In this document: positions 37,213 to 60,776 of the stretch, piece after piece
Layout of the letters: each line of letters begins with the position of its first letter
How positions within the stretch are numbered: the stretch's first letter is position 1
Origin: Tropicibacter sp. R16_0
GTDB lineage: Bacteria > Pseudomonadota > Alphaproteobacteria > Rhodobacterales > Rhodobacteraceae
Direction: 5' to 3'
NCBI RefSeq assembly: GCF_017743935.1
Contig: NZ_JAGHRE010000006.1
Location: forward strand, 248,001 to 312,000
Length of the DNA: 64,000 bases
The notes under the pieces: model-generated
What the model was told of the DNA's origin: nothing
Databases searched by the model: none
The model's input: the letters and a program-made list of their open reading frames with translations, nothing else
Translations under genes and position numbers: made by a program

Positions 37213-37943
37213 CAGGCGCTCCCCAAGTATGACGCCTGCACGGCCTTGTCGTTCATGACTTCGCTGAACGTGCCCTCGGCGATCATGGTGCCGCGTTCGA
37301 TGGCGATGGCCCGATCGACCAGCGGTTCGAGCGCCGGCAAATCATGGCTCACAATGAGGAAAGTCATACCGTCCTTGCGCATGGATTGAATGAGATCGGA
37401 GATTTGCGCAATTTCCCCCACGGTCAGACCGGCAAACACCTCATCCAGCAGCATCACGCGCGGCGCGGTGGCCATGGTGCGGGCCATTTCAAGCTTGCGC
37501 AGATCCCCCATGGCCAACTCGGACGGGAGCCGTTCCAGATCGGCCTCGGCAAAACCCACACTCAGCGCCAGTTCGCGTTCCCGATCCGTGTCAGGGGGCG
37601 AAACGATCATACGCCAGATGTTGTCCGGCATCAGACCCACGCGGATGTTCTCGGCCACGTTCATATCACCAAAGGGCCGTGGGATTTGATAGGTCCGGCT
37701 GACACCGGCGCGGATGCGCTGAGGCGTGGACTGTGCCGAAATTTCCTGTCCGAAGAGTTTGATCGTTCCGCTGTTCTGACGCAGCTCACCCATGATCTGG
37801 CTGAAGACGGTGGTCTTTCCGGCCCCGTTGGGGCCAATCAGACCCAGCGACTCGCCTTCTTTGAGGGAAAAGGACAGGTCATTCGTAGCCACCAGCCCAC
37901 CAAATCGTTTGACCAGGCCGGAGATTTCAAGCGCTGCGGTCAT
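37212..37943 (-). CDS. livG: Branched-chain-type ABC transporter ATP-binding protein LivG
   Basis: 243 residues from the ATG overlapping the livM stop (ATGA); the open frame extends further upstream, but that part is livM sequence in another frame. It has Walker A GPNGAGKTT, ..RTYQIPRPFGDMNVAEN.., a signature replaced by LAMGDLRKLEMAR, Walker B VMLLDEV and an SHD H-loop. The signature loop (LAMGDLRK) is the variation usual in LivG proteins. It is the second ATPase of the importer. Confidence 0.9.
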   Translation of the reverse strand: MTAALEISGLVKRFGGLVATNDLSFSLKEGESLGLIGPNGAGKTTVFSQIMGELRQNSGTIKLFGQEISAQSTPQRIRAGVSRTYQIPRPFGDMNVAENIRVGLMPDNIWRMIVSPPDTDRERELALSVGFAEADLERLPSELAMGDLRKLEMARTMATAPRVMLLDEVFAGLTVGEIAQISDLIQSMRKDGMTFLIVSHDLPALEPLVDRAIAIERGTMIAEGTFSEVMNDKAVQASYLGSA

Positions 37944-38887
37944 GCCACACCCCCTTTCCGCAGCCTGAGAACGCCGGTTCTCACCAGTTCGACAAGGCCC
38001 TTGGGCTGATACATGTAAAGGAGCAGTGCAATTGCGCCGTAGACAAAGTACCGCTCGGCCCCCGGCAGGACCGGGCGCAGGTATTCCAGAAGAAACGTCA
38101 TGAAGAAGGCACCGATCATCGGGCCGACAATGGTCGACGTACCGCCCAACAGGGCCGCAACGATGATGGTGAACAGGAAATTGATGTCGAACAGCGCCCG
38201 AGGGGCCAGAGAGCCAAGGTAGTGGACATAGAACGCGCCACCCAACCCGGCGATGAAAGCACTGGTCAGAAAGGCAAAAGCCTTGAGCCGCGTGCTGCTT
38301 AGCCCTGAGCCCCGCACGCTTTCTTCGTTCATTCCTATGGCGGCCAAAGCAGTTCCCAGCCGGGTTTTCATCAGCAACCACATGCTGACGGCAACGCTGA
38401 GCATCAGGGCTGTTGACAGGTAATACCCATTTGCGGCCCCCCGGGTCAGGGTCTGGATGCCGGACATGCCACGCGTGCCGCCGGTCAGGTCAGGGCGGAT
38501 GACCTGCACCAGCTGATAGAGCAGCTCCATGAACGCCAGCGTGACCAGCGCGAAATAGCTGCCGCGAATGCGCAGTGCAGGCAACAGAACCAGAAGACCC
38601 GCGATCATGGTGCACACAACTGCGATGGGGATCGAGATTTCGACCGGAACGTCGAACCGTTTGGTCAGGATGGCCGTAGTGTAGGCCCCGATGCCGATCA
38701 GAAAGGGATGGCCAAAGCTGACATACCCGGTTCGACCCGACAGAACGTCCCAGCTGATGGCAAAGATGGCAAGATAATTGGCAAAGATCATCGTGCGCAT
38801 GGTGCCGTTGGACACCACTTGCGGCAGTAGGAACATGCCCACGATCAGGCCGCCCCAGAGGACAAAGTGAAACCAGCGCAGGCCCAT
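37940..38887 (-). CDS. livM: Branched-chain-type ABC transporter permease LivM
   Basis: 315 residues from ATG 38887, chosen because a strong GAGGAG ribosome binding site lies eight bases upstream and because it clears the livH stop. A longer frame from 38908 would overlap livH by 20 bases. It has about eight to ten hydrophobic segments and the family loop GLSSTRLKAFAFLTSAFIAGLGGA. It is the membrane half of the importer, paired with LivH. Confidence 0.9.
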   Translation of the reverse strand: MGLRWFHFVLWGGLIVGMFLLPQVVSNGTMRTMIFANYLAIFAISWDVLSGRTGYVSFGHPFLIGIGAYTTAILTKRFDVPVEISIPIAVVCTMIAGLLVLLPALRIRGSYFALVTLAFMELLYQLVQVIRPDLTGGTRGMSGIQTLTRGAANGYYLSTALMLSVAVSMWLLMKTRLGTALAAIGMNEESVRGSGLSSTRLKAFAFLTSAFIAGLGGAFYVHYLGSLAPRALFDINFLFTIIVAALLGGTSTIVGPMIGAFFMTFLLEYLRPVLPGAERYFVYGAIALLLYMYQPKGLVELVRTGVLRLRKGGVA

Positions 38888-38888
38888 A

Positions 38889-39740
38889 TTATAACTCCTC
38901 GCGGCCAAAGAGGCCTTGGGGCCGTGTCACCAGCACGCCGATGATCAACAGCATGGTGAAAACCCCCCGCAATTCAGGGGCCAGCGTTGCAACCACGATG
39001 ACCTCGAGAAACCCGATGATATGTGCGACCACCAGAGTACCAATGATCGAGCCGATCCCACCCACGATCACAACGGCAACCGAGATGATCAAAGGGGCCA
39101 CCCACATTGATGGAGAGAGCTGTGTGTAGCTGGCAAAGAACACGCCGCCAAGCGCCCCCAAAGCCCCCGAGATGCCCCAGGTGATCAGGTTGATTCGATC
39201 GGGATCTATCCCGGAGATTGCTGCGCCTTTGGCATCCATCGACACCGCTTGCATTGCCCGACCGGTGTGGGTCAGCCGGACAAATGCGTAAAGACCCAGC
39301 AAGATGGCCCAACTGATCATGGTGGCAATCAGGATGTTGTAGGTCACAGAAGCTCCGGCGACGTTGATCACCCCCGGTACAATCGGCAGCAGGATCTTGC
39401 TGCTGTCGCCAAAGACCAGAACAATGCCTGCTTGGATCACAACTGCCAGGATCAGAGTTGAGATTTCGACTGCCACGTGATCGCCTTTGAGCGTCTTGAC
39501 GATCAGGCGGTATTTCAGAATGCCCATCATCACGCCCAAGGCCGCGGCCACCACGACGCCCATCAACTTGGGCATCCCCAGTGTTTGCGACACCCAAAAG
39601 TAGATGTAACCGCCGACCATAAGGTATGCGCCATAGGCCAGGTTCAGGACACGCCCGATGCTGAAGATCAGCGTAAAGCCCATTGCGATGAGCGCATAGA
39701 GACCGCTGAGCAAAAGCCCCTGAATCAAGATCTGCAACAT
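38889..39740 (-). CDS. livH: Branched-chain-type ABC transporter permease LivH
   Basis: 283 residues with seven to eight membrane segments. It starts MLQILIQGLLLSGLYALIAMGFTLIFSIGRVLNLAYG, the classic LivH opening. The G-I-D-P..INLITWGISGALGALGGV loop is the ATPase-coupling region. It forms the permease pair with LivM. It lies 65 bases after the binding-protein gene. Confidence 0.92.
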   Translation of the reverse strand: MLQILIQGLLLSGLYALIAMGFTLIFSIGRVLNLAYGAYLMVGGYIYFWVSQTLGMPKLMGVVVAAALGVMMGILKYRLIVKTLKGDHVAVEISTLILAVVIQAGIVLVFGDSSKILLPIVPGVINVAGASVTYNILIATMISWAILLGLYAFVRLTHTGRAMQAVSMDAKGAAISGIDPDRINLITWGISGALGALGGVFFASYTQLSPSMWVAPLIISVAVVIVGGIGSIIGTLVVAHIIGFLEVIVVATLAPELRGVFTMLLIIGVLVTRPQGLFGREEL

Positions 39741-39805
39741 GATGGGTTTCCTTGTTGCGGGCGCGCGTCACAGCGCGCCCGGTTCAAGCTATTGATGCGA
39801 CTTGG

Positions 39806-41086
39806 TTATTTCTTGACCCAGCTGGGTACCGTGAAATCGCCCGTTGCGTATTTCTCGGGGTACACCACAGCGGCGGTACCATCCTCGTACCACTGGACCA
39901 CAACCATGGACGGGGCCGCGTCATCAAACGGTTCGGACAGGTCAAAGCGGATGTTATGCGGATATGTTCGGCCTGTGACGGGTTCAACTTCGTCATCGCC
40001 CCAGAAGGCATAGCGCAGCCACAGCTGCCCATCCAGCTCCAGAACCAGGTCCTGCTTTTTCATCGCTGCGGCCCAACCTTCGACATTGTCGAAACCACCG
40101 GCCTCTTCAGCTGCGGCCATGGCCTGTTTCAGACCGTGATAGGCGTTGAAGCCGTTGAAGTGGGGCAGCAGCGGGCGGCTATCATACTTGGCCTGATACG
40201 TGTCGACAAAGGTCTGACTTGCCGGATCCAGCCGGAAACCAACAGACGGGATCGGGGACAGGGTCGAAATACCCCCTCCGGCACCGCCAGTGTCTTCCCA
40301 GTATTCCATACCAAGCGCGGATACGTTCACGCCGGTCATCGCCATTGGTACTTGCAGTTTCACATATTGCGATGAGACCACTTGCGAGTTCACCGACGAG
40401 ACCTGATAGATGAAATCGGCCCCCGTGTCCTGCGCTCGGCTGAAGATCGGTGCGAAATCAACGGTCGCCACGTCGTATGTGATGATTTCCTTCACCTCGA
40501 TCCCGGCAACAGGCGCCAAGGCTTCGGTCACCAGTCCGGTGATCGCCTCACCAAAGGCGGTGTCTTCGGCCAGGATGACCACGGAATCCCAGCCCATCTT
40601 TCCCTTCAGAACATCCGCGCCAAAGTTGATGTAGAGCGTGGCCAAAGCCTCATCCGAGGCGATGTTCATGAAATAGGGCGCCATGCTTTCGGGATCTTCG
40701 ATCACCATGTCGATGATGCCGATGTAAGATGTCCAGGTGTCCAGCGTCGGGATGCGGTACTCCTGCATTCGGGGCAACCAGCCCAGAGACACATCGTCAA
40801 TCGAGCCCGAGATGATGAAATCGACCTCTTCGGTTTCGGCCAGGTATTCATAGGCGCGTACGCCTTCGGTCGGGTCCTGTCCGGTGTCTGCTGAAACCAG
40901 CGTAATCTGTTCACCCATCACGCCGCCATTGGCGTTGAGTTCTTCGATCGCGATTTCTGCCCCGCGCAGGGTCGACAGGCCGGTATCCGAAGATAGCGAT
41001 CCAATAAATCCAACCTTTATCTCTGCTGCGGCCGCCGAGGCCATGAGCGCGAGGCATGTCCCGCTGAGTAGCGCTGTCTTGATCAT
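39806..41086 (-). CDS. ABC transporter substrate-binding protein, branched-chain/amide type
   Basis: 426 residues from the ATG at 41086, which begins a clear Sec signal (MIKTALLSGTCLALMASAAAA). The mature protein is a type I periplasmic binding fold (IKVGFIGSLSSDTGLSTLRGAEIAIEELN). The ligand may be an amino acid, a short amide or an amine. Its promoter region contains a copy of the GntR-type operator, which links uptake to the microcompartment regulon, so the ligand is plausibly the substrate of that pathway. Confidence 0.9.
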   Translation of the reverse strand: MIKTALLSGTCLALMASAAAAEIKVGFIGSLSSDTGLSTLRGAEIAIEELNANGGVMGEQITLVSADTGQDPTEGVRAYEYLAETEEVDFIISGSIDDVSLGWLPRMQEYRIPTLDTWTSYIGIIDMVIEDPESMAPYFMNIASDEALATLYINFGADVLKGKMGWDSVVILAEDTAFGEAITGLVTEALAPVAGIEVKEIITYDVATVDFAPIFSRAQDTGADFIYQVSSVNSQVVSSQYVKLQVPMAMTGVNVSALGMEYWEDTGGAGGGISTLSPIPSVGFRLDPASQTFVDTYQAKYDSRPLLPHFNGFNAYHGLKQAMAAAEEAGGFDNVEGWAAAMKKQDLVLELDGQLWLRYAFWGDDEVEPVTGRTYPHNIRFDLSEPFDDAAPSMVVVQWYEDGTAAVVYPEKYATGDFTVPSWVKK

Positions 41087-41117
41087 CACATTAGCTCCCT
41101 GTGTCTCATTATGCCTT

Positions 41118-41143
41118 TCTTGTATTCTGTATACAGTACACAA
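41118..41143. promoter_or_regulatory. GntR-type operator, copy A (binding-protein promoter)
   Basis: A near-palindrome of 26 bp with the core GTATTCTGTATACAGTAC and outer arms CTTGT/ACAAG. It lies 32-57 bases before the importer binding-protein gene. It shares the CTGTATACAG core with sites near 47930 and 53340, and a variant lies near 49495. Confidence 0.8.
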
Positions 41144-41182
41144 GAAGGTGGTTCGATCAAATCCTTTCTTGAAAACTCATGT

Positions 41183-41593
41183 TCAGAAACCGCTGATTTT
41201 GCCGTTTTGGTCGTGGATTACTGCGTCCACATCGATTTCAACCACCAAACCCGGCTGGGTCAGGCCCGCCTCAACTGCGGTCAGGACGGGATCGATCCCT
41301 TTGAACACCTCACCATGGGCCTGCGCAAATGCGCCCGCCTGGGACAAATCGGTCAGATAAGCGCGCACGCGGCCCACATGGCGCATTTCTGCTCCGACCT
41401 CACCTAGTGCTTCGTTGATGCGAGATAGGATGTAGCGGGTCTGTGCCCCAACATCCCCTGGTGCATGGATCCGGCCTGAGGGTTCGATTGCGGTGGTTCC
41501 GGCAACCCAAACAAAAGGGCCGATGCGTTTGGCGCGAGAGTATGAGGCAACCTCTTCGAACCGCCCACCGGACTTCCACGTGCGCAGGGTCAC
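41183..41593 (-). CDS. RidA/YjgF-family protein lacking the catalytic arginine
   Basis: 136 residues of the Rid fold. Where RidA has P-A-R-S/T-x-V-E (Arg105, needed for imine hydrolysis), this protein has PVLTAVEAG, with leucine in the arginine position. It therefore probably belongs to a non-RidA Rid subgroup without 2-aminoacrylate deaminase activity. Its start overlaps the malate-dehydrogenase-like gene stop (ATGA), and it is the last gene of the microcompartment operon. Rid proteins in such operons often act on or bind reactive imines and enamines, which would fit an amine pathway. Confidence 0.85.
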   Translation of the reverse strand: MTLRTWKSGGRFEEVASYSRAKRIGPFVWVAGTTAIEPSGRIHAPGDVGAQTRYILSRINEALGEVGAEMRHVGRVRAYLTDLSQAGAFAQAHGEVFKGIDPVLTAVEAGLTQPGLVVEIDVDAVIHDQNGKISGF

Positions 41594-42771
41594 AGGCCCA
41601 GCCTTTCGCGGATCGCCTCGGCCGCGGTCTGCAGGGCCACTTGCTCTGTTTGTGTCAGCCGCAGCTCTTCAACTTCGACCAGACCGCCCGCCCCCAGATG
41701 GGCCGGCACGCCCAGAACAACACCCTCAATTCCGTATTCTCCCCGCAACATGACCGACACCGGAACCGGCCCGGAGCGCGCGCCCCGAATGTGATCGATC
41801 AACTCGATCGAGGCATGGGCCGGGGCGATGGTCGCCGAGCCCGATTTCTTGAGCGCGACCACCTGACCGCCGCCGGTGATCGCGTCTTTGACGCAGGCCT
41901 CGATCTGCTCAGATGATAAGAACACATCCAGTGGGCGCCCTTTGATACGGGCGCGGCTGGGGATTGGGGCCATCTCATCACCATGGCTTCCAAGGGTGAA
42001 GGCCTCGACATCCGCAGGTGTCACGTTTGCGGCCATGGCAAGCGCATTCCGAAACCGGCTGCTGTCAAGCGTTCCGGCCATGCCCAGAACCTGCTCACGT
42101 GGGAATCCAGTTGCCCGCAGCATCTCGACCGTCATCTCGTCCAGCGGATTGGTCACAACGATCACAATGGCATTCGGCGCGGCAGATCGGATCGCTTCAG
42201 CAGCCTGCCGAATGACACGGGCGTTGACGTCGATCAGATCCGCGCGGGTCATCCCCGGTCTGCGGGCCCGTCCGGCAGTGACGACAACCACCTCGGCTCC
42301 GGCCACCAACTCCATCGTCTCGCCCCCGACACATCGCGCGCGCGCGCCGGTGATCCCGGATGTGTGGTTGAGGTCCAGTGCTGTCGCAGCGGCCAGACCT
42401 GGAGTGATGTCGATCAGTGCAATCTCATCCGCAATATCCGCCATCGCTGCCAGATGCGCGACATTGCCGCCAACGCCCCCTGCGCCGACCAGCGCCAGCT
42501 TACCAAGTCTGCGTGCCTTGCGGGGCGCGCGTGATGGTGCGACCCATTTGGGCGACCGACGATACAACACCCGGCGCATCGAAACCGCGCCGTCCGTGCG
42601 CGGTGCCTGCGGGCGTTCAAGCGGGCCGTCGACCAGAGCGATGCCAACCCGTTCTGCCGTTTCGCGAGCCAAGGCCGTCACGATGTCGCCCGGCAGGACC
42701 TCGAACACGATCCTGCCGCGACGGCGGGCATCCTCGACCGCGTCCGAGCCTATGACACGCGGCGCAGCCAT
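41590..42771 (-). CDS. Malate/lactate dehydrogenase-like enzyme with a microcompartment-type N-terminal segment
   Basis: 393 residues from the ATG that shares one base with the BMC-T stop (TGATG); the frame is open further upstream. Residues 1-50 contain VTALARETAERVGIAL, a short segment resembling EutT-type and other BMC-associated N-termini. About 90 residues in, the NAD-binding LALVGAGGVGGNVA begins an LDH/MDH fold with R-R-P-G-M-T-R (arginine at the malate-specific position 102), the catalytic pair in TLDSSRF and GSHGDEM. It probably oxidises or reduces a 2-hydroxy/2-keto acid, perhaps recycling NADH inside the shell. The extension could direct encapsulation. Confidence 0.85.
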   Translation of the reverse strand: MAAPRVIGSDAVEDARRRGRIVFEVLPGDIVTALARETAERVGIALVDGPLERPQAPRTDGAVSMRRVLYRRSPKWVAPSRAPRKARRLGKLALVGAGGVGGNVAHLAAMADIADEIALIDITPGLAAATALDLNHTSGITGARARCVGGETMELVAGAEVVVVTAGRARRPGMTRADLIDVNARVIRQAAEAIRSAAPNAIVIVVTNPLDEMTVEMLRATGFPREQVLGMAGTLDSSRFRNALAMAANVTPADVEAFTLGSHGDEMAPIPSRARIKGRPLDVFLSSEQIEACVKDAITGGGQVVALKKSGSATIAPAHASIELIDHIRGARSGPVPVSVMLRGEYGIEGVVLGVPAHLGAGGLVEVEELRLTQTEQVALQTAAEAIRERLGL

Positions 42772-43394
42772 CAGGCGTCTTGCCCATCCACAGCTTCGAT
42801 GGCCTGGGTTGCAGCCTCGACAGCGGTTTTGACAGAATTTTCCGATCCCGAAATGAACAGTCGGCCGAACCGTCCCACGGCGCGCACTTCGACAATGTCG
42901 ATTTCGGCGGCTTTCTCGGCCTCGTTTGCGGCAATCGAGATATAGGCCGCAGGCGCACACTCTACGATACCCAGTGTCTGCCCTGGCACGATCAGCGCGC
43001 CCTTGCGCCATTTGTTCAACAGTTGCGCCTGATAGGGTTCGACGCTGGTAATAATCTGGGTCGAGGTGATGGACGGCTTCAAACGGTCCGACATCGAAGC
43101 GCCCAGTTCAGCGAGCATCGCATCCCGAGCGGCAGACACCTCGGCGTTTGACGGCGAGCGCAGGATGAAAAACCCGAACTCGCGTTCCACCATTTGTGTC
43201 GTCGCCTCGACCGAAGAGGCCTTGAGCGCCCGGTCAATCAGTGAAAACACCCCGTTGCCTGGGGCAAACTCTCCGATCAGAACAGTATCGCCTGACAAGG
43301 GAACCGACCCTTGCACCGTTGCGCCATTGTAGGCCGCAAATTTGGGTTGCAGGTTGTCGATCTGCATCAGCGCCCGGATGGTAATCTCGCTCAT
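42771..43394 (-). CDS. BMC-T (tandem-domain) microcompartment shell protein
   Basis: 207 residues with two BMC domains, about 5-95 (PLSGDTVLIGEFAPGNGVFSLIDRALKAS) and 112-200 (GQTLGIVECAPAAYISIAANEAEKAA...GRFGRLFISGS). Tandem BMC proteins form pseudohexameric trimers in the shell and often carry a gated pore for larger molecules. It overlaps the aldehyde dehydrogenase gene by four bases. With one BMC-H and one BMC-P gene in the same operon, the shell set is minimal but complete. Confidence 0.9.
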   Translation of the reverse strand: MSEITIRALMQIDNLQPKFAAYNGATVQGSVPLSGDTVLIGEFAPGNGVFSLIDRALKASSVEATTQMVEREFGFFILRSPSNAEVSAARDAMLAELGASMSDRLKPSITSTQIITSVEPYQAQLLNKWRKGALIVPGQTLGIVECAPAAYISIAANEAEKAAEIDIVEVRAVGRFGRLFISGSENSVKTAVEAATQAIEAVDGQDA

Positions 43395-44770
43395 GCGCCA
43401 TACTCCTCGTAAATGTCGCGCCAGGGTCTGCTTTCATAGGCAACCCGTTTGATGTTGATGAGATGCAGGGCCGTCACGTTGTCCGAGGTGATCGACCCCG
43501 ACCAGGTGCCGGTGCCCAGCATGAAAGACGGTTCCAGATCGGTGGAATATCCCATCCCGCCCATGATCCCCGGTGTGTTCACCAGCACCCTGCCGGTGGG
43601 CACTGTGGCAAACCGAGCGACCACTTCAGGATCGTCTGAATGAATGACCGATGAATGACCCCAGCCTTCAAACTTGGCGATGGATTGCGCCAATTCGATG
43701 CCGTGATCGGTGGACTTTGCCTCATAGAAGGCCAGGACCGGGTTCAACTTTTCCGCCGATAGCGGGCGGTGCCAGCCCACTTCGGTTTCTTCCGACACCA
43801 GACAACGGGTGCGCGGCGGAATTGAGAAACCCGCGGCGTCGGCCAGGGCCTGCGGGCTTTGTCCAACCCGATCAGGATCCATCGCTTGTGCGCCCTTGAA
43901 GATGACACCGGCCAGCCGATCTGCCTCGGCCGGGGTGCAGAAATAGGCGCCTTTGAGCTTTAACTCATGCCGCAGGTCGCGCGCGATTTCGGGATCGGCC
44001 ACAACCGCCTGTTCACTGACACAGGCCGTGCCGTAGTCGAAGCTTTTCGAGGTCACGATCATCTCGGCAACTTCGGCCAGATCGCGGGCTTTGGATTTGT
44101 GGACATAGCAGGGCACGTTCCCTGCCCCCACCGCAAGCGTCGGCTTGCCGCTGGAATAGGCAGCCTTGACCATTGCTGGCCCACCTGTGGCCATCACGAC
44201 CGAGGTTCTCCGGTGCCGCATCAGCTCAGCCGTGCCTTGAATGGTCACCGCATCCAGGCATTGGATCAGCCCCTTGGGGGCACCCATCTGTTCGGCAACG
44301 CGCGCCATGATGCGCACGGTTTCGATCCCGCAACTCACACCGCGCGGGTGTGGGGCGCAGACAATGGCATTGCCGGCCTTCACGGCCGACAGAACCTTGT
44401 AGATGATCGTCGAGGTCGGGTTGGTGACCGGCACCAGCGCCGCGACCACACCCATCGGTTCGCCAAAAGCCGCGATCTTTGTGGCGTCGTCCCGCCAAAG
44501 CATACCCAGTGTCGTCACATCCCGCAGGTAATCCGCGACCGACAGGGCATTGAACAGGTTCTTGACCCGCTTGTCTGGCACATTGCCATAGCCGGTTTCC
44601 TCAACCGCCAACTGGCCCAGCCGTTCCGCTTCGGGTTCGATGGCGCGGGCCATTGCGTCAACGATGGCATCCACCTGCGCCGGGTCGGTTCCAAGAAAGG
44701 CGCGATAGGCTTCGAATGCGGTTTCAGCAGCACGCCGTGCGGCGGCGATGGATTTCAGATCAGCGTCCAT
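43391..44770 (-). CDS. Acylating (CoA-dependent) aldehyde dehydrogenase of the EutE/PduP type
   Basis: 459 residues from ATG 44770, which shares one base with the previous stop; a GTG lies one codon earlier. The EutE/PduP/AdhE-type fold is shown by PVTNPTSTIIYKVLSAVKAGNAIV, ATGGPAMVKAAYSSGKP and the catalytic cysteine in KSFDYGTACVSEQAVV. It converts an aldehyde, CoA and NAD to acyl-CoA and NADH, the core reaction of aldehyde microcompartments. The long N-terminal targeting extension of PduP is not obvious, so encapsulation may use another signal. Sulfoacetaldehyde or acetaldehyde are possible substrates. Confidence 0.9.
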   Translation of the reverse strand: MDADLKSIAAARRAAETAFEAYRAFLGTDPAQVDAIVDAMARAIEPEAERLGQLAVEETGYGNVPDKRVKNLFNALSVADYLRDVTTLGMLWRDDATKIAAFGEPMGVVAALVPVTNPTSTIIYKVLSAVKAGNAIVCAPHPRGVSCGIETVRIMARVAEQMGAPKGLIQCLDAVTIQGTAELMRHRRTSVVMATGGPAMVKAAYSSGKPTLAVGAGNVPCYVHKSKARDLAEVAEMIVTSKSFDYGTACVSEQAVVADPEIARDLRHELKLKGAYFCTPAEADRLAGVIFKGAQAMDPDRVGQSPQALADAAGFSIPPRTRCLVSEETEVGWHRPLSAEKLNPVLAFYEAKSTDHGIELAQSIAKFEGWGHSSVIHSDDPEVVARFATVPTGRVLVNTPGIMGGMGYSTDLEPSFMLGTGTWSGSITSDNVTALHLINIKRVAYESRPWRDIYEEYGA

Positions 44771-45954
44771 CACATGTCTCCGGTGGCGATCGTGTCAAAG
44801 ATGCGGCGTGCCTGTTCGACATCGCCTGCGGATATTCCGATGGTGTCCAACCTGCGCCCTGCTGCGGCGACATCTGCGCCAAGGATGCGGTCGGTCATCG
44901 CAATGAGGCTTTCTGTCAAAGGTGCGGGAATGCCCGCGAGCTGTGCAGCCGAGACGAGCGGTACCAGCGACCCCAACACGCCGTCGCGCATCAGTTGACG
45001 CGCGGTCTGACTGTCCGGGACAGGACGTGCGGTGGGTCCCCGTTCAGTTCCGGCAAAGGTTGCGATCCAATCATCGGTTTCGGGCAAGGTTCGAATGCCA
45101 AAGGCCGATGCAACCTGCCGTCGTTCTTCGGCAAGCCCGCAGATGACCTCGTGCTGATCGGGCCCAATGAGCGCCGCAAAAGTCTGGTTTTCCTTCAGCG
45201 GTACACCCCCCATCGGGATGTCCGGGCCGCCAGAGCCTAAACCCACGCCACCAAGGATCAGCGTCGGTATCTCAACCGCAGCCGAAAGATCAGCGAAGCC
45301 CGAGGCCAGAACAGACTCTGTCGGCTGGATGTTGGATAGATACGGCGTCAAGGCTGCAAGAACATTCTCTCGCCCACGTGGGAGAGTTGCAGCGGCCATT
45401 GGCGCTGCTTGTGTCAGCGTCAAACCAGCCCCTTCGGCCTGATACCAGAACGGCAGGCCCTGAACTTCGACCAGAGTGACATCTGCCGAGCATCCACCAA
45501 TGCGCAGCATCCATGCGGCCTCGACCGCGCCCAGAGACCGGCCTGGCGCCAGAACCAAAACCTGACCATCGCTCAGATGATCGGCCAGAACCATGGCATA
45601 GGTTCTCTGTTTGTGGATTGGCCCGGTCAGAAAAATCGCTTGCGCGTCCCGCACTGCCGCATCCAGTTCCGCCGTGGTTCGGATCGACGGCCCGTCGCGG
45701 TCGACCTGATATGTGCCGACCGGCCCTTCGCCCCGAATGCCGATGCCCGAGGATTGGGTCAAAAGCGTCAACTCTGCCCCGTAGGCCGAGAACAACGTGA
45801 CCTCGGCCCCTTCGGCCAGACACAGTGCGGCCAGCAGGCGGGCATCCGGCCCGCCGCCCAACACCGTTATGCGGTCAAACCTTTGGCTGACGGGTGCATC
45901 CCGTGTCGCGCTGCGTGTCACCGCGCGCGTGAAATCCTCGAAACCGGCTGACAT
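44770..45954 (-). CDS. Opine dehydrogenase-family protein (octopine/nopaline dehydrogenase-like)
   Basis: 394 residues. An N-terminal Rossmann domain (ITVLGGGPDARLLAALCLAEGAEVTLFS) is followed by a segment typical of the octopine dehydrogenase family (LAPGRSLGAVEAAWMLRIGG...LVEVQGLPFW), and a C-terminal helical domain (LVPLVSAAQLAGIPAPLTESLIAM). These enzymes reductively join an amino acid to a 2-keto acid, or run in reverse. Inside a microcompartment operon this suggests imine or amine chemistry, or local NADH recycling. A GAGGAGAT ribosome binding site precedes the ATG. The substrate is unknown. Confidence 0.8.
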   Translation of the reverse strand: MSAGFEDFTRAVTRSATRDAPVSQRFDRITVLGGGPDARLLAALCLAEGAEVTLFSAYGAELTLLTQSSGIGIRGEGPVGTYQVDRDGPSIRTTAELDAAVRDAQAIFLTGPIHKQRTYAMVLADHLSDGQVLVLAPGRSLGAVEAAWMLRIGGCSADVTLVEVQGLPFWYQAEGAGLTLTQAAPMAAATLPRGRENVLAALTPYLSNIQPTESVLASGFADLSAAVEIPTLILGGVGLGSGGPDIPMGGVPLKENQTFAALIGPDQHEVICGLAEERRQVASAFGIRTLPETDDWIATFAGTERGPTARPVPDSQTARQLMRDGVLGSLVPLVSAAQLAGIPAPLTESLIAMTDRILGADVAAAGRRLDTIGISAGDVEQARRIFDTIATGDM

Positions 45955-45976
45955 GGTATCTCCTCAAAGGGGCGGA

Positions 45977-46285
45977 TCAGGCCGACGACCCGGCACCCAG
46001 CCCGTCGATGATGGCTTCAAGTTCGTCATGCGGCCGTGCGATCACATGGACCGAAACCACCTCGCCCACCTTGTTGGCTGCTGTTGCGCCTGCATCTGTC
46101 GCGGCTTTGACTGCGCCAACTTCGCCGCGCACAAGGGTGGTCACCAATCCGCCGCCGGCCTTAGTCTGGCCGACGATGGCAACACTGGCCGCCTTGACCA
46201 TCGCATCCGCAGCTTCGATCGCGCCGACAAGGCCACGCGTTTCGATCATGCCAAGGGCCATTTGCCCTGCCACTGGTTTCGCCAT
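45977..46285 (-). CDS. BMC-H hexameric microcompartment shell protein
   Basis: 102 residues, a single BMC domain: [53 protein letters not shown]. It is very close to PduA/EutM-type facet proteins. The pore-loop region reads KAGGGLVT where PduA has K-I-G-S-G-L-V. The gene has a strong GGAGGA site. It is the only BMC-H in the window, so it is likely the main facet tile. Confidence 0.95.
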
Positions 46286-46327
46286 TTTCTGTTCCTCCGA
46301 AGAAAAGTGTTTTGTGTGTGTCGTGTT

Positions 46328-46594
46328 TCAGGACGTCGAGACGTGGTCGACAATCGCAACGATGGCCAGATCCACAGGTGCCGTGGACAAACCCGCCGCC
46401 ATCCGCGCCGCTGACCCGCTGACGACCATCACCATGTCTCCGACCCCCGCGCCGCAGGTGTCGACCGCGACCCGCGCAGGGTCGAGAACACTGCCCTTGC
46501 CATCAATCAGGTCCGTCACAAGCAGCTTTGTTCCGACCAACCTGGCATCTTTGGCCGTTGCCGTGACGGTGCCAGCGACCTTGCCCAACTGCAT
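46328..46594 (-). CDS. BMC-P (EutN/CcmL-type) pentameric vertex protein
   Basis: 88 residues. It opens with MQLGKVAGTVTATAKDARLVGTKLLVTDL and continues to VDTCGAGVGDMVMVVSGSAAR, the standard EutN/CcmL fold. It caps the twelve vertices of the shell, which is needed for a closed particle. The start shares one base with the stop of the glutamine-synthetase-like gene (TGATG). Confidence 0.95.
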   Translation of the reverse strand: MQLGKVAGTVTATAKDARLVGTKLLVTDLIDGKGSVLDPARVAVDTCGAGVGDMVMVVSGSAARMAAGLSTAPVDLAIVAIVDHVSTS

Positions 46595-47886
46595 CAGAAT
46601 GTCCTCAGATAGCGGTCCAGTTCGACCTGGGTGACTTGTTGGTTAAAGAACTCCAACTCGCGCTCGCCCTGTTGCAGGACCAATTCCCAAAGCATCTCGC
46701 CCAGAACATCGCGCAGCCAGTCCGATCCACGTGCAAGTTCGATGGCCGTGGGAAGGTCGGTCGGGATGGGGTCGCCGATGCCCTCTTCGTATCCGTTGCC
46801 CGTCGTGGGGTCGGAGGGGGTCAGCCCCTGTTCGATCCCATCCAGCCCGGCTGCAATTTCGGCCGCCAACAGCAGGTAGGGGTTGGCGTCTGCGCCGGCA
46901 TCGCGTTTTTCAACACGCACGGCGCTGTCGGACCCTTCGATCACCCGAATGCCAACGGTGCGGTTGTCATACCCCCAGCTCGTGTTGATCGGGCAGAAGG
47001 TATAGGGCTGCCGACGACGATAGCCATTCACCGTGCCACTGCCACAGATCGCTGTTTCGCACATGCGCTGCTGCAAACCGGCAATAAAGGATTTGCCGAT
47101 GTCATTGATCTTGCCGTTGTCGGCGAAAGCGTTTTTGCCATCCTTCCACAGCGAATAATGCGTGTGAAACCCGTTACCCGACTGATCAAAGAAGGGTTTT
47201 GGCATGAAAGTCGCAAGATAGCCGTGCGCAATGCCCAACTGCCGGATCAGTGATTTGAACAGCACAACTCGGTCCGCTGCTTGCAGAGCCTCGCCATATT
47301 TGATGTTCACCTCAACCTGACCCGCCGCGTATTCCGGGTTCGATTGTTCGATCGGAATGCCGCATTCGTTGATCTGCTGGCGGATCGGGCCGACGATGTG
47401 CTCCATCCTGGCAGCGCGGCCGAGACCGTAAACCTGAATGCCACTGTCGCGCGGCTGACCGGTTTCCGGGTCCAGCAGATAGAACTCCAGCTCGGTGCCG
47501 ACGTTGACCTCAAAACCCATGTCACGGGCGCGATCCATTTGCCGCACCAGTGCCTGACGTGGGTCAATGGGGACAGGCTTGTGATCCATACCTTCGGCAC
47601 GGCCAAAGCAAACCGCGACGCCAGGTTCCCAGGGAACGGCGACAGGCTGGGTCATCGGAAAGAGATGCATGTCAGGATAGCCATTGTCGAAATTGACATA
47701 CGGCGTGTCCCAGACATCGCAGGTCATATCGATCGCCATCAGCGCAATCGACAAAGCGTTGCCGCTCTTGCAGACGTGATCCCAGTGGCTGGCCGGAATG
47801 CGCTTGCCGCGCATGATGCCGTTGAGGTCCCCAACACCAAGTATGACGGTATGTGTGCCCTCGGGCAGATCAAACCCCGAACTCAT
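46594..47886 (-). CDS. Glutamine-synthetase-family ligase, probable gamma-glutamyl-amine synthetase
   Basis: 430 residues with a GS beta-grasp N-terminus (VILGVGDLNGIMRGKRIP) and catalytic domain (GTELEFYLLD, FMPKPFFDQSGNGFHTHYSLW, RVEKRDAGADANPYLLLAAEIAAGLDG). The N-terminus has the D-L-N-G-x-x-R-G-K pattern of PuuA-like enzymes rather than the ammonia-site FDGSS pattern of true glutamine synthetase. This points to ATP-dependent joining of glutamate to an organic amine (polyamine, ethanolamine or methylamine are candidates). It is the first gene of the microcompartment operon, directly behind operator copy B, and divergent from a flavin oxidase. Confidence 0.85.
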   Translation of the reverse strand: MSSGFDLPEGTHTVILGVGDLNGIMRGKRIPASHWDHVCKSGNALSIALMAIDMTCDVWDTPYVNFDNGYPDMHLFPMTQPVAVPWEPGVAVCFGRAEGMDHKPVPIDPRQALVRQMDRARDMGFEVNVGTELEFYLLDPETGQPRDSGIQVYGLGRAARMEHIVGPIRQQINECGIPIEQSNPEYAAGQVEVNIKYGEALQAADRVVLFKSLIRQLGIAHGYLATFMPKPFFDQSGNGFHTHYSLWKDGKNAFADNGKINDIGKSFIAGLQQRMCETAICGSGTVNGYRRRQPYTFCPINTSWGYDNRTVGIRVIEGSDSAVRVEKRDAGADANPYLLLAAEIAAGLDGIEQGLTPSDPTTGNGYEEGIGDPIPTDLPTAIELARGSDWLRDVLGEMLWELVLQQGERELEFFNQQVTQVELDRYLRTF

Positions 47887-47920
47887 TTGCGTGCGCTCCC
47901 TGTTTTTGGCTTTATATTTG

Positions 47921-47946
47921 CTGTATTCTGTATACAGTATTCACAA
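47921..47946. promoter_or_regulatory. GntR-type operator, copy B (divergent promoter of the BMC operon and flavin oxidase)
   Basis: GTATTCTGTATACAGTAT at 47923-47940, in the 91-base divergent spacer. It is identical to copy A over the first 17 of 18 core bases. The location allows one bound regulator to control both the shell operon (minus) and the flavin oxidase (plus). Confidence 0.8.
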
Positions 47947-47977
47947 AGACAGACAGGAAACAAGGAAAATCTGCGCC

Positions 47978-49117
47978 ATGTCCAAAAGCTCGGTTATCGT
48001 TGTCGGAGGTGGCATCGTTGGCGTCATGACGGCGCTTACACTGCAACGGCGCGGCGAGTCCGTGACGTTGATCGACAGATGGGAGCCGGGACATTCCCGT
48101 GCGTCTTCAACGGATTACAACCGCGTGATCCGTGCGATTTCCGGGCGTGACGAGTTCTATACACGGTGGGCGCGCGAAAGCCGTCTGCGCTGGCTCGAGC
48201 TGCAGGCCGAAAGCGGGCAGAACCTGATGTATGAATGCGGCGCGTTGATTCTGGCCGCTGGCGGTCACAGCGACTGGGAAGATGCGACTGCCGAGACTTT
48301 TGATCGTGTTGGCGTGCCTTATTACAAGTTTGATCAACAAGATATCGAATCGCGGTTTCCCCAGTTTCGCGTACCCGACATCGAATACGCCCTGTTCGAA
48401 CCCGAAGCTGGCATGCTGATGGCCCATCGTTGTGTTCTGACCGGGCTGAACCTGTTTCGTCAGGCCGGCGGCAAGGTGCAACGCGGTCGCGTGACCACGG
48501 ATGGCTCCGAACGTCCGATGCTGGACGGCGCCCCGCTAGAGGCAGATCTGATCGTCATCGCGACGGGTCCCTGGATGGCAGATATGTTCCCCAGAACGAT
48601 CAAACCCATTTCGACCGTTGTGGGCGTCAATGTCCTCTACACCTCGACACCCGATGGGTCCGAAGAGTTCGACATGACACGTATGCCCTGCTGGATCGAT
48701 CATGGACAAGGGTCGTTTGGCCTGCCCTCGTCCGAAGGGTCGGGCGTCAAGGCGGCCGTGGTGATCCCCGACAAGATCGATCTGGACAATGACGAACGGC
48801 TTATCCGCCAGGAAACACTGGGCCGCACCCGCAGCTATATCCGGCACCGTCTTCCGGGGCTTGAGGGGCAGCGGGTTGTGGATTCCAAGTTCAACCAGAT
48901 CATCCTGACCCCAGATACGCATTTCATTGTCGATTGGCACCCAGAGCATGAAAACGTGCTGTTTGCCGGGGGATGCTCGGGTCATCTGTTCAAACACGCG
49001 CCTGTGTTTGCGGAATTTGCGGCAGGCGTCGGTCTCAAGGACTTTGGTACCGCCGATCGGTTCAAAGTCTCAGGTCGAAAAAAGCTGAGCCCAAAAGAAA
49101 GCCCCAGCGGCCGCTAG
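47978..49117 (+). CDS. DAO-family FAD oxidoreductase, monomeric sarcosine oxidase-like
   Basis: 379 residues from ATG 47978, preceded by AAGGAAA; the frame is open upstream but starts inside the divergent promoter. The N-terminal dinucleotide fold is VIVVGGGIVGVMTALTLQRRG. The C-terminus reads ILTPDTHFIVDWHPEHENVLFAGGCSGHLFKHAP, strongly like monomeric sarcosine oxidase. The cysteine that binds FAD covalently in MSOX (Cys315) is Asn here (FNQIILTPD), so FAD is probably not covalently held there. It should oxidise a secondary amine or N-methyl amino acid, releasing an aldehyde and peroxide. N-methylglutamate or a gamma-glutamyl amine would fit the neighbours. Confidence 0.85.
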   Translation: MSKSSVIVVGGGIVGVMTALTLQRRGESVTLIDRWEPGHSRASSTDYNRVIRAISGRDEFYTRWARESRLRWLELQAESGQNLMYECGALILAAGGHSDWEDATAETFDRVGVPYYKFDQQDIESRFPQFRVPDIEYALFEPEAGMLMAHRCVLTGLNLFRQAGGKVQRGRVTTDGSERPMLDGAPLEADLIVIATGPWMADMFPRTIKPISTVVGVNVLYTSTPDGSEEFDMTRMPCWIDHGQGSFGLPSSEGSGVKAAVVIPDKIDLDNDERLIRQETLGRTRSYIRHRLPGLEGQRVVDSKFNQIILTPDTHFIVDWHPEHENVLFAGGCSGHLFKHAPVFAEFAAGVGLKDFGTADRFKVSGRKKLSPKESPSGR

Positions 49118-49464
49118 CCCTGGGCCAGAACGCGGTAGATTTCTGCGTTGGGGCACTTGGTATCTGGCAAAGCCACACCTGCACGAATGGCATCGCGGCA
49201 GGTTTCGGCTTGCAGGCAATGCCCACATTTTTCCGCCAGTTCCAACCCGAGTTCTGAATGCGCGCTCAGATCCGCTTCGGTCAAACCAAATTGTTCTGCC
49301 ATCGCAACTATGCGCTCGCGCGCCCGTGGCGCGCCTGATCGCAGCATCGCCAGATCTGCACGCGAGAGCCCAAGATCCGAAAGCTCACGTTCACTCAGGT
49401 GTTCATTATGAGGCGCGCTGATGACTTGCGCCATTTTCTGAAAGAATTTTGCGTATCCCGACAT
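49114..49464 (-). CDS. Small cysteine-containing protein, DUF6455-like
   Basis: 116 residues with an N-terminal helical part (HLSERELSDLGLSRADLAMLRSG) and a C-terminal motif CGHCLQAETC...TKCPNAEIY carrying four cysteines (C-x2-C-x5-C...C), which could bind a metal or cluster. Short DUF6455-type proteins of this kind are common in Rhodobacteraceae and have no settled function. A variant operator (copy C) lies 24 bases before its start, so it probably belongs to the GntR regulon. Its stop overlaps that of the flavin oxidase on the other strand. Confidence 0.75.
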   Translation of the reverse strand: MSGYAKFFQKMAQVISAPHNEHLSERELSDLGLSRADLAMLRSGAPRARERIVAMAEQFGLTEADLSAHSELGLELAEKCGHCLQAETCRDAIRAGVALPDTKCPNAEIYRVLAQG

Positions 49465-49487
49465 CCCACGCCCTCCTCATCCACACT

Positions 49488-49504
49488 ATGTATTCAGTAT
49501 ACAT
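49488..49504. promoter_or_regulatory. GntR-type operator, copy C (variant)
   Basis: ATGTATTCAGTATACAT, a near-palindrome sharing the GTATTC-x-GTATACA spacing of copies A and B but with a changed centre. It sits 24 bases before the DUF6455-like gene and after the amidotransferase gene. Weaker match, so lower confidence. Confidence 0.6.
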
Positions 49505-49552
49505 GGTGCGCCAGGGCCGGGTTTGATCAGGATCAAACGGGGGTTCCTGATA

Positions 49553-50248
49553 TCACTTTTGGGTGTAAGTACCGCGAAAAAGGTCGACCGCCTGTTCGGC
49601 GGCTAGATCTTTTGGCACATGGGCGTTTTCAAGTGAGGCCAGGCCATCGTCCGCCTCTTGCGCCGTAAGAAACACGTCGCGTCCGCGCGCAAAGAGATCT
49701 CGCAGATGCTGCGCTTGGTACTCGGGATGAAACTGAACCGACCTAGCGGGGAATTCATAATCCAAAGCCCCAACGGGACAGTGGCCGGCAGCCCCGGTAA
49801 CCCGCGCCGAGGGTGGAACGGATGTGACCTGATCCTGATGCCAGACATAGCCATCCACACGGGCTCCGTCATAGTCGAAGCCCCGCGCACCGACGATGTT
49901 GCCCACCTCGGCCTTCTCGGCCTTGCCGCCAAAGACGTCGGCCATAATCTGATGTCCAAAGCAGATGCCAAAAACGGGTTTGGCCTGCGCGCGGCACTCT
50001 TCCAGAAAATCGCGAAGGGGCTGCATCCACTCTGTGTCATCGTAGACCCCGAATTCGGACCCTCCGACCACGACCCCGTCAAACTCCGAAAGTGCGGGCA
50101 ATGGCGCGCCGTCCACCACATCGACCGAGTGAAACTCGGCTTCCGGCAGATGTGGCGCCAGCCAGTCGCGGATCTGCCGCGACGTGCGCGGCAGACCCTC
50201 TAGCAGGGGCAAGGGATGCCCCGTCAATTCGAGAATTGCGATCCTCAC
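49553..50248 (-). CDS. Class I glutamine amidotransferase/gamma-glutamyl hydrolase-like protein
   Basis: 231 residues with the nucleophile elbow FGICFGHQIM (catalytic Cys) and the catalytic histidine/glutamate pair in QFHPEY. Stand-alone class I amidotransferases include the gamma-glutamyl hydrolases of the PuuD type. With a PuuA-like ligase and a DAO flavoprotein nearby, release of glutamate from a gamma-glutamyl intermediate is plausible. A GMP-synthase-like solitary subunit is the alternative. It overlaps the glutamate-synthase-like gene by four bases and is the last gene of that operon. Confidence 0.82.
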   Translation of the reverse strand: MRIAILELTGHPLPLLEGLPRTSRQIRDWLAPHLPEAEFHSVDVVDGAPLPALSEFDGVVVGGSEFGVYDDTEWMQPLRDFLEECRAQAKPVFGICFGHQIMADVFGGKAEKAEVGNIVGARGFDYDGARVDGYVWHQDQVTSVPPSARVTGAAGHCPVGALDYEFPARSVQFHPEYQAQHLRDLFARGRDVFLTAQEADDGLASLENAHVPKDLAAEQAVDLFRGTYTQK

Positions 50249-51669
50249 CAGTCAAAGGCCCTGTCGATGCCCGCCATCTTGACGCCGGTAAAGGCCGACG
50301 CTTGAAAGCTGAGAGCACGGAGATCTTCGGTTTCCAAATTGTGGACCGAGGACTTGCCGCAGGCCTTGGCCAGTGCCGTGATCTCCATCGTCATCGCGGT
50401 CAGATACCGGGCGACGCGTTCGGCCCCGGCATGCGGATTCATCCGCGCTTCAAGCTCGGGATCTTGGGTGGCGACCCCAACCGGACAGCGACCCGTGTGG
50501 CAGTGGTGGCAGGCCCCGGGCGAGGTGCCCAATGCCTGATAGTCCTCCAGATACCGCGGGCTGTTGCAGCCCAATGCGACCATCGCCGCGTTGCCGATCA
50601 TCACCGCATCCGCCCCAAGCGCCAGGCATTTGGCCGCATCTACGCCCGAGCGGATGCCGCCCGCCGCAACAAGAGATACCTTGCCGCTCATCCCGCATTC
50701 ATCTAGCGCCTCGCGCGCAGCGCGAATGGCGCTCATGGTCGGGATGCCGGTGTGGTTCAGCAACAGTTCAGGCGACGCTCCGGTGCCGCCCTCGGCGCCA
50801 TCTACAACCACCACATCCGCGCCGGCCTTGGCGGCGACTGCAACGTCAAACCGGGGGCGGGTTGCGCCCATCTTGATGAAGATCGGAACCTGATAGTTCG
50901 TTGCGATCCTCAGTTCCTCGATCTTGACTGCAAGGTCGTCCGCGCCCAGAAAATCCGGGTGCCGGATGGTCGAGCGTTGATCGACCCCTTCAGGCAAGGT
51001 CCGCATTTCACTGACGCGTGGGCTGACCTTCATGCCAAGCAGCAGACCGCCGGTGCCGGGTTTGGCCCCCTGCCCCACGACGATTTCCAACGCATCGGCG
51101 CGGCGCAGGTGATCCAGGTCCACGCCATAACGGGCAGGCGACATCTGATAGAGCAGCCGTTGGGAGGCTTCGCGCTCCTCTTCCAGCATGCCGCCTTCGC
51201 CCGTGCAGGTCATGGTGCCCACTTTCGAGGCCCCATAGCCCAACGACGCCTTTGCCGAAGCCGACAGCGCGCCAAAGGACATCGATGCGATGTAGATCGG
51301 GATCTTCAATTCCAGCGGACGCTCAACCAATCCGCGCCCGCCACCCAGAACGGTGGTTGTATCGCAGCTTTCGCGATACCCCTCCAGCGGCAGGCGGGTC
51401 ATGGTTGCGGGAACAAATGTCAAATCATCGAAGGTTGGCATTTGCTTGTTGAACGTGTTGTAACCACGAACCTGGTACCGCCCAAGCTGCGCCAATGCGT
51501 GCACTTCCGAGATCGCCTCGGGTGTCCATCTGGTCGACCCGCCTTCGTCATATGAGGATGGCACACCCGCCGGGCGACCATCGATGGCACCTGCATCGCG
51601 GAACCGGATTTCATCCTCAGGTGCGACTTCGAACGGATAGTCGTAGGGTTTACTCAGATCATGAGCCAT
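50245..51669 (-). CDS. glxD: FMN-dependent glutamate synthase-like large subunit (GlxD/MgsC type)
   Basis: 474 residues. A GltS FMN-binding barrel is visible from about residue 110 (IPIYIASMSFGALSASAKASLGYGASKVGT), with DVVVVDGAEGGTGASPELLLNHTGIPT, AAGGIRSGVDAAKCLALGADAVMIGNAA and a cluster motif C-H-H-C-H-T-G-R-C-P-V-G. It corresponds to the synthase domain of GltB encoded as a separate protein. With GlxB and GlxC it should form either N-methylglutamate synthase (methylamine plus glutamate) or a related enzyme. It overlaps the GlxC gene by 16 bases. Confidence 0.88.
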   Translation of the reverse strand: MAHDLSKPYDYPFEVAPEDEIRFRDAGAIDGRPAGVPSSYDEGGSTRWTPEAISEVHALAQLGRYQVRGYNTFNKQMPTFDDLTFVPATMTRLPLEGYRESCDTTTVLGGGRGLVERPLELKIPIYIASMSFGALSASAKASLGYGASKVGTMTCTGEGGMLEEEREASQRLLYQMSPARYGVDLDHLRRADALEIVVGQGAKPGTGGLLLGMKVSPRVSEMRTLPEGVDQRSTIRHPDFLGADDLAVKIEELRIATNYQVPIFIKMGATRPRFDVAVAAKAGADVVVVDGAEGGTGASPELLLNHTGIPTMSAIRAAREALDECGMSGKVSLVAAGGIRSGVDAAKCLALGADAVMIGNAAMVALGCNSPRYLEDYQALGTSPGACHHCHTGRCPVGVATQDPELEARMNPHAGAERVARYLTAMTMEITALAKACGKSSVHNLETEDLRALSFQASAFTGVKMAGIDRAFDW

Positions 51670-53308: not shown

Positions 53309-53332
53309 GAAGAGCTCCCTTTCAAATCACAT

Positions 53333-53352
53333 CTGTATACTGTATACAGTAC
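53333..53352. promoter_or_regulatory. GntR-type operator, copy D (divergent promoter of glxBCD and the regulator)
   Basis: CTGTATACTGTATACAGTAC, containing the CTGTATACAG core of copies A and B preceded by another CTGTATA. It lies in the 128-base spacer between glxB and the GntR gene, as expected for an autoregulated FCD-type regulator. Confidence 0.82.
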
Positions 53353-53436
53353 ACGGCCAATAGCAAGCCCATTCGCCTTGGCACCCGCTGCTTTTTTGAA
53401 TACAGAATTCATAAAACACCGAAAGAGAGGCTCCGA

Positions 53437-60775: not shown

Positions 60776-60776
60776 C

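Follow-up and report, generated by a model that had tools for sequence, protein, structure and literature searches.

Where does a metabolosome obtain its aldehyde when an aldehyde dehydrogenase is the only hint of what the shell is for? In the 2021 catalogue (PMC8217296), MIC2–7 and other loci have an aldehyde dehydrogenase and no known aldehyde source. The same question is raised by an eight-gene shell operon of Tropicibacter sp. R16_0, which lies in a 64,000-nucleotide stretch of contig NZ_JAGHRE010000006.1 (positions 248,001–312,000), hereafter the window. Its neighbourhood, a palindrome common to the surrounding gene sets and the co-occurrence of genes across genomes point to a specific source that can be tested, a glutamate-borne amine, and we regard the case for a glutamate-conjugating amine metabolosome as evenly balanced.

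The operon runs on the minus strand from 47886 to 41183 and encodes a glutamine-synthetase-like ligase (GSl), the bacterial microcompartment (BMC) proteins BMC-P and BMC-H, an opine-dehydrogenase-like protein (ODH), an acylating aldehyde dehydrogenase (ALDH), BMC-T, a malate-dehydrogenase-type enzyme (MDH) and a Rid-family protein (RidA), in genes whose ends mostly overlap or touch. The original prediction, made from the DNA letters, had placed eight genes here, and all eight were found on this strand; the range holds for the operon and falls short of the whole system, which reaches approximately from 36505 to 54108, beyond both sides. The predicted shell proteins BMC-H, BMC-T and BMC-P (Pfam BMC, BMC and EutN_CcmL), the aldehyde dehydrogenase (Aldedh), the malate-dehydrogenase-like protein (Ldh_1_N/C), the RidA-like protein (Ribonuc_L-PSP) and the gamma-glutamyl-ligase-like protein (Gln-synt_C) all score above the Pfam cut-offs. 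The shell is minimal, because the two PF00936 matches of the genome both lie in this operon, and together with the acylating ALDH it marks the locus as a putative metabolosome. The Pdu, Eut, Grm and Pvm plans are not matched, as had been predicted: their signature enzymes are absent from the eight operon genes and eight neighbours scanned, and diol dehydratase, ethanolamine lyase, glycyl-radical enzyme and class II aldolase gave no match in these 16 genes, a genome-wide search not having been made. The predicted lack of a phosphotransacylase was also borne out for the PduL type, with none in the operon and no PF06130 match in the whole genome, the Pta/EutD type not having been searched for.

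Conservation of this gene set was assessed in 62 shell loci from Rhodobacterales, Rhizobiales-type, Granulosicoccaceae-type and other proteobacterial genomes. These were gathered with the ODH protein as query, so that ODH is present by construction, and they do not amount to 62 independent cases, since close relatives and a pair of fragments from a single metagenome-assembled genome (MAG) are among them. Counted only over loci where the contig has room for the gene, the other operon genes are present in 51/51 to 60/60 loci (GSl and ALDH each 57/57, MDH 52/52; the remainder in Table 1), which is more than chance. A monomeric sarcosine oxidase (MSOX)-like flavoprotein divergent from GSl (DAO) is present in 55/55, 42 of 48 loci have the LivK gene of a Liv-type transporter close to the operon, and three genes resembling N-methylglutamate synthase, encoding an amidotransferase (GAT2), a GXGXG and an FMN-binding subunit (the trio), are seen within the fetched locus in 34 of 62. 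Few genomes carry the system: of 295 in the family sample, 9 have a BMC-T ortholog (76–100% identity), source genome included, and a tenth passes the threshold at 38% only. An ALDH search of a phylum sample matched 1 of 398 genomes, the source genome itself.

A palindrome of TATACTGTATACA type links these genes. With up to 2 mismatches it has 13 matches at four places in the window against 0.06 expected, and shuffled sequence gave at most 1 match in 100 shuffles; since it was picked after viewing the window, a fair test has to come from how well other loci conserve it. Across the 62 shell loci, it lies within 250 bp upstream of GSl in 57/57, DAO in 54/54, GAT2 in 28/30, the GntR regulator gene in 28/29 and LivK in 26/33 cases, after dropping genes matched from beyond residue 15 or with a 250-bp upstream window running off the contig. 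Upstream of internal genes it is absent throughout (RidA 0/52, MDH 0/52, BMC-T 0/57, ALDH 0/59, ODH 0/56, LivH 0/43, and the FMN-binding and GXGXG subunits each 0/30). One site is usually common to GSl and DAO, and likewise to GAT2 and GntR. Eleven separately fetched trio loci carry it before GAT2 in 10 and before GntR in 10; across 80 loci, 151 of 175 site clusters sit within 250 bp upstream of the tested genes, and GntR is so preceded in 44 of 46 loci. Nine unrelated loci have no sites. The shared motif thus indicates a single regulon, and the GntR protein presumably binds the palindrome. Because the palindrome is common to all of them, the oxidase, the trio, the Liv transporter and the GntR regulator belong to the same system, before which the original prediction had stopped short. 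The small DUF1127/DUF6455-like gene between DAO and the second amidotransferase gene (GAT1) is likewise preceded by a copy of the palindrome.

Co-occurrence ties the trio to the shell system even where the two are not adjacent. Among 27 genomes without the trio in the fetched locus, 24 carry an ortholog of 80–94% identity outside that stretch, one of them with an internal stop (G012) and one directly beside shell genes (G022); control genomes have the ortholog in 6/6 cases. The next homologs are at most 58% identical. In the family, the trio ortholog occurs in 12 of 295 genomes, and all nine BMC-T-bearing genomes are among the 12 (Fisher p 5e-15, ignoring kinship). The trio therefore belongs to the shell system.

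Table 1. Features of the shell system and its regulon neighbours, in window coordinates
Feature	Coordinates	Strand	Evidence and remarks
Liv-type ABC transporter LivK, H, M, G, F	36505..41083	-	LivK and LivH scanned; M, G, F by open-reading-frame reading; LivK start taken as 41083
Operator-like palindrome upstream of LivK	41121..41142	.	kept in 26/33 BMC loci
Rid-family protein	41183..41593	-	PF01042; present in 51/51 loci
Malate-dehydrogenase-type enzyme, EutQ-like N-terminal domain (~residues 1-84)	41590..42771	-	Ldh_1_N/C
BMC-T shell protein, CcmP-like	42771..43394	-	PF00936; NF053796 208 bits (cut-off 340); 54/54 loci
Acylating aldehyde dehydrogenase (ALDH)	43391..44770	-	TIGR02518 500 bits (cut-off 620), positions 1-453 of 488
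ODH, opine-dehydrogenase-fold protein, conserved short N-terminal FxxF helix	44770..45954	-	AlphaFold2 (AF2) model
BMC-H shell protein	45977..46285	-	PF00936 89 bits; present in 60/60 loci
BMC-P shell vertex protein	46328..46594	-	PF03319 91 bits; present in 58/58 loci
GSl, putative gamma-glutamyl-amine ligase, glutamine-synthetase-like, first operon gene	46594..47886	-	PF00120 294 bits
Operator-like palindrome between GSl and DAO	47922..47943	.	conserved in BMC loci
DAO, MSOX-like flavoprotein, divergent from GSl	47978..49117	+	PF01266; MSOX 120 bits
Small protein, weakly DUF1127/DUF6455-like	49114..49464	-	under Pfam cut-offs; operator copy upstream
Operator-like palindrome upstream of small DUF1127-like gene	49489..49503	.	
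GAT1, class I glutamine-amidotransferase-like, possible gamma-glutamyl hydrolase	49553..50248	-	PF00117
FMN-binding glutamate-synthase-like subunit (MgsC-like)	50245..51669	-	PF01645 331 bits
GXGXG subunit (MgsB-like)	51654..52367	-	PF01493; 33% identity to the Paracoccus aminophilus subunit
GAT2, class II amidotransferase subunit (MgsA-like)	52364..53308	-	GATase_6/7; 32% identity to the Paracoccus aminophilus subunit
Operator-like palindrome between GAT2 and GntR	53334..53353	.	
GntR/FCD regulator, proposed regulator of the set	53437..54108	+	PF00392, PF07729

By its sequence, GSl resembles amine ligases. It is 35–37% identical to IpuC, 32–33% to GmaS, 31% to PuuA and 27% to GlnA, and IpuC is its best specifically named relative among the 50 plasmid matches listed. 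A role as glutamine synthetase is disfavoured, as the Glu-flap glutamate (which we take to be E327) is replaced by Phe in 58 of 59 GSl sequences. The same position holds Trp in GmaS (Trp300; PMC7948447, in excerpt) and IpuC, and Tyr in PuuA. According to the same paper, the related RhGmaS takes ethylamine as well as, though poorly, propylamine; the RhGmaS residue numbers fail to match on the Paracoccus aminophilus ligase. In DAO, the equivalents of MSOX Arg49, Arg52, Lys265 and Lys348 are kept in 57 or 58 of 58 sequences, and the position of the flavin-linking Cys315 is mostly Asn. The idea that shell systems alone have a DAO homolog was rejected or weakened: among seven relatives tested it is found in one, the shell-bearing G047, with none at E 1e-60 in G052, G097, G120, G519, G328 and G547, where shell absence is genome-wide for the first three and refers to the fetched 20 kb for the last three. 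In the trio, the FMN-binding subunit is 52.5% identical to its P. aminophilus counterpart, and Cys2 of GAT2 is kept in 30/30 sequences. GAT1 is patchy, occurring at no less than 35% identity in 27 of 62 loci, with Cys96 in 28/28. For LivK, comparison with the PDB and with plasmids turned up distant relatives only.

The other operon enzymes show both conserved active sites and departures from known types. ALDH retains the catalytic Cys250 in 60/60 sequences and lacks the C-terminal extension seen in type I BMC aldehyde dehydrogenases. MDH scores 314 bits with PRK06223 (cut-off 283) and keeps the catalytic Arg170, Arg176, Arg239 and His263 in 54/54 sequences. The BMC-type N-terminus that had been predicted for it aligns to the N-terminus of Escherichia coli EutQ with an hhalign probability of 60.6, against at most 2.5 for eight shuffles and at most 0.3 for four other Eut N-termini. 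RidA imine deaminases carry an active-site Arg, and an imine-deaminating function is disfavoured for the Rid protein here: the presumed deaminase-arginine position holds L, T, M, S or V, and never Arg, in 53/53 sequences.

The AF2 model of ODH (mean pLDDT 88.4, low at the N-terminus) best matches PDB entry 1bg6, an N-(1-D-carboxylethyl)-L-norvaline dehydrogenase (TM 0.72/0.81), from which an opine-dehydrogenase fold is predicted with confidence. Opine dehydrogenases use a catalytic His. In the alignment, His202 of 1bg6 falls on ODH Glu228 (Glu in 57 and Asp in 3 of 60 sequences), and the 1bg6 Asp position falls on Gly325 beside Asp324, the latter being Asp in 40 of 60; loss of the catalytic Asp thus appears less sure than loss of the His. 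The predicted opine-dehydrogenase-like protein stands as regards the fold and not as regards the catalytic His, and an ordinary opine dehydrogenase is disfavoured by the His-to-Glu228 replacement and the Octopine_DH (PF02317) score of 24.5 bits, under the cut-off of 30. The loop HKQRTYAM (residues 114–121) is invariant in 47/47 sequences, which argues for a conserved ligand. The N-terminal FxxF helix, in a low-confidence part of the model, has a hydrophobic moment of 0.65 (family mean 0.45) and is a possible encapsulation peptide. ODH might be a repurposed opine dehydrogenase, a lumenal signature enzyme that oxidises or splits an N-alkyl(idene)glutamate so that aldehyde is freed inside the shell and glutamate serves as a recyclable carrier; we consider this rather unlikely. 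If true, a lumenal ODH acting on a glutamate conjugate would be a new signature-enzyme class and a new delivery principle for metabolosomes.

Relatives without a shell indicate what the regulon does elsewhere. Three genomes (loci L099, L100 and L101) have no BMC-T ortholog. L100 holds GntR, the trio, GSl, RidA, two acyl-CoA ligases, a soluble aldehyde dehydrogenase, another flavin oxidase (DAO2) and LivH; L101 holds the trio, a soluble aldehyde dehydrogenase, DAO2, RidA and, beside GntR, a malonyl-CoA synthetase (779 bits, cut-off 558); L099, L119 and L120 hold RidA, the transporter, the trio, GSl and DAO2. A soluble aldehyde dehydrogenase is found in the palindrome-bearing loci L100, L101, L119 and L120, and in L099, L100, L119 and L120 the trio precedes the ligase, which is the mgsABC–gmaS plan (PMC4543880). 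A DAO-family oxidase is annotated or matched nearby wherever the trio is present in these loci, and the palindrome precedes two of four RidA genes, those where RidA begins the operon. In L121 (genome G547), the palindrome is present and the Liv genes are 73–79% identical, GSl stands with a reductase, a cytochrome P450, an amidotransferase, an omega-aminotransferase and an aldehyde dehydrogenase, and neither a trio nor a window-type DAO is found. Thus, a different chemistry apparently stands under the same control there, in place of the trio, the oxidase and the shell. On plasmid pML2037 of Mesorhizobium loti (L123), a 62% identical GSl is accompanied by a P450, an iron-sulfur protein and a gamma-glutamyl-GABA (gamma-aminobutyrate) hydrolase; roughly 10 kb from these lie genes for propionyl-CoA carboxylase and methylmalonyl-CoA mutase, a hint at a C3 substrate. 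The ipuC clusters of Paenarthrobacter aurescens TC1, described for isopropylamine (PMC6776027), share this P450 gene plan. Because of its neighbours in the shell-less, P450 and ipuC-like loci, the GSl family sits with amine breakdown.

From gene content, conservation, homologies, co-occurrence and the common motif, we infer a pathway, that is, its reactions, their order, their encapsulation and a substrate. The Liv transporter would bring in a small amine or its derivative, and GSl would use ATP to form a gamma-glutamylamide from glutamate and the amino group. The trio would convert this to an N-alkylglutamate, as N-methylglutamate synthase does with methylamine, and DAO with O2 would oxidise the product to an imine that yields glutamate and an aldehyde. 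Inside the shell, ALDH would turn aldehyde, NAD+ and CoA into an acyl-CoA, and the EutQ-tagged MDH would restore NAD+ through oxaloacetate reduction. ODH, with its encapsulation-peptide-like helix, probably binds or splits the glutamate–aldehyde conjugate, and the GntR regulator would govern the set via the common palindrome. A short n-alkylamine (C2–C4) is the likeliest class of substrate, although an alkylamine specifically is a tentative choice; since ALDH requires an aldehyde, a primary n-alkylamine fits better than isopropylamine.

Several observations weigh against this pathway, which is weakest at the site of DAO action, the role of ODH and the return of CoA. DAO would free the aldehyde outside the shell unless the enzyme is encapsulated, and no targeting signal was found in it; ODH has no settled reaction; and CoA recycling is unexplained, there being no PduL. 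GSl, at its modest identity to IpuC, is under every named NCBIfam cut-off. The trio ortholog is absent from 3 of 33 shell-locus genomes (MAGs), and 3 of the 12 trio-bearing family genomes lack BMC-T. LivK has no palindrome in 7 of 33 loci and is missing from 6 of 48, and Liv-type carriers usually import amino acids or amides. The malonyl-CoA synthetase beside GntR in L101 would fit beta-alanine.

Two of these points lead to the best-surviving alternative, in which the same route serves a small zwitterion such as beta-alanine, taurine or GABA and the aldehyde is malonate semialdehyde, sulfoacetaldehyde or succinate semialdehyde. Besides the Liv-type transporter and the L101 malonyl-CoA synthetase, it would account for the 312 bits of ALDH with the SauS sulfoacetaldehyde model (cut-off 600), and N-(carboxyalkyl)glutamates are opine-like and would suit ODH. 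However, ALDH scores higher with TIGR02518 (500 bits), this synthetase (MatB) was seen in a single shell-less locus only and GSl is nearest IpuC among the named relatives in the matches listed, making a zwitterion unlikely. Ethanolamine or another hydroxyamine, metabolised via glycolaldehyde, is improbable. Catabolism of glutamylated ethanolamine is known from Phaeobacter sp. MED193, but the genes listed there (PMC10132767), a TRAP transporter, a ligase, two dehydrogenases and an amidohydrolase, do not include a trio, and the P450 variant in L121 hints at a non-hydroxylated chain. Equally improbable is that the shell handles an unrelated aldehyde while ligase, trio and transporter are merely co-regulated for nitrogen scavenging: in MIC1-like loci, whose core is similar, neither a ligase nor a trio is annotated, yet here GSl lies ahead of the shell genes in every locus that permits it (57/57), DAO accompanies them in 55/55, and the palindrome is common to the gene sets. 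A plain methylamine pathway with formaldehyde handled in the shell, suggested by the likeness of trio and ligase to MgsABC and GmaS, was rejected or weakened and is very improbable, because GSl scores 240 bits with the GmaS model TIGR03105 (cut-off 470), 24 of 30 trio-ortholog genomes also hold a 51–58% homolog, which makes the linked trio a separate clade, and the P450 and acyl-CoA-ligase variants hardly suit a C1 amine.

Elsewhere in the window, the region lies between two distinct AcrB/AcrD-type RND efflux pumps (26050–29187 and 56186–59365). NMT1-type nitrate-transporter-like proteins, followed by nitrite-reductase-like and molybdopterin oxidoreductase genes (11875–22956), probably serve nitrate assimilation, and a UPF0261 protein, an APH-type kinase and a class III aminotransferase in a row (59543–63022) possibly form another amine or amino-alcohol cluster.

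Compared with known shell loci, the core of the operon has precedents, the closest of them on two plasmids. Plasmid loci of Methylibium petroleiphilum PM1 (L076) and Rhodococcus oxybenzonivorans (pRB98; L077) share the order BMC-P, BMC-H, ALDH, BMC-T and MDH, with identities of 52/50% for ALDH, 52/53% for BMC-T, 67/68% for BMC-H, 44/43% for BMC-P and 40/42% for MDH. Both have a weak EutQ-N-like stretch on or beside MDH (E 0.0025 and 1e-5) and no annotated phosphotransacylase, and they carry EutJ, Zn-alcohol dehydrogenase, HAD hydrolase and PPDK-like genes. Unlike these loci, the window operon includes the ligase, ODH-like and Rid genes, with the oxidase, trio and Liv transporter alongside. The two plasmid loci fit the printed MIC1 description, a match that is ours, and the text of PMC4207490 does not name Methylibium. 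The window operon fits it in part: it has the MIC1 trait of an aldehyde dehydrogenase with a lactate/malate dehydrogenase and no phosphotransacylase, but the MreB-like protein, further alcohol dehydrogenase, hydrolase and phosphatase of MIC1 are absent from the 16 genes scanned. The literature searches listed no description of the locus, PMC12376047, PMC12478193 and PMC12180729 naming microcompartments only in their reference lists. The proposal of a new or functionally unassigned metabolosome thus stands in that the locus is unusual and no assigned function was found, and not as regards the core, which the Methylibium and Rhodococcus loci already have. Under the naming rule of the 2021 catalogue, the locus would be a MIC, and it may be one of MIC2–7, catalogued without function (PMC8217296).

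Among amine pathways, the N-methylglutamate pathway (GmaS, MgsABC, MgdABCD) has the same ligase, three-subunit synthase and flavin oxidation and shares the gene plan of the shell-less relatives, at the ligase and subunit identities given above. The window system differs from it in having an MSOX-like oxidase and in that a shell-associated acylating ALDH would take up the product. The Ipu pathway of P. aurescens TC1 offers the nearest named ligase, and L121 has its ligase–P450–reductase–amidotransferase plan; unlike Ipu, the 16 window genes scanned include no P450, and the trio, oxidase and shell stand instead. The putrescine Puu pathway follows the same logic of ligase, flavin oxidase, aldehyde dehydrogenase and amidotransferase, whereas the window system has an acylating ALDH, the trio and a shell. 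If the glutamate-conjugating amine metabolosome is real, breakdown of glutamylated amines would join the known functions of bacterial organelles, marine Rhodobacterales and relatives would have a new way of using dissolved organic nitrogen, and a whole class of orphan metabolosomes could be read via their regulon neighbours, beyond the shell operon alone.

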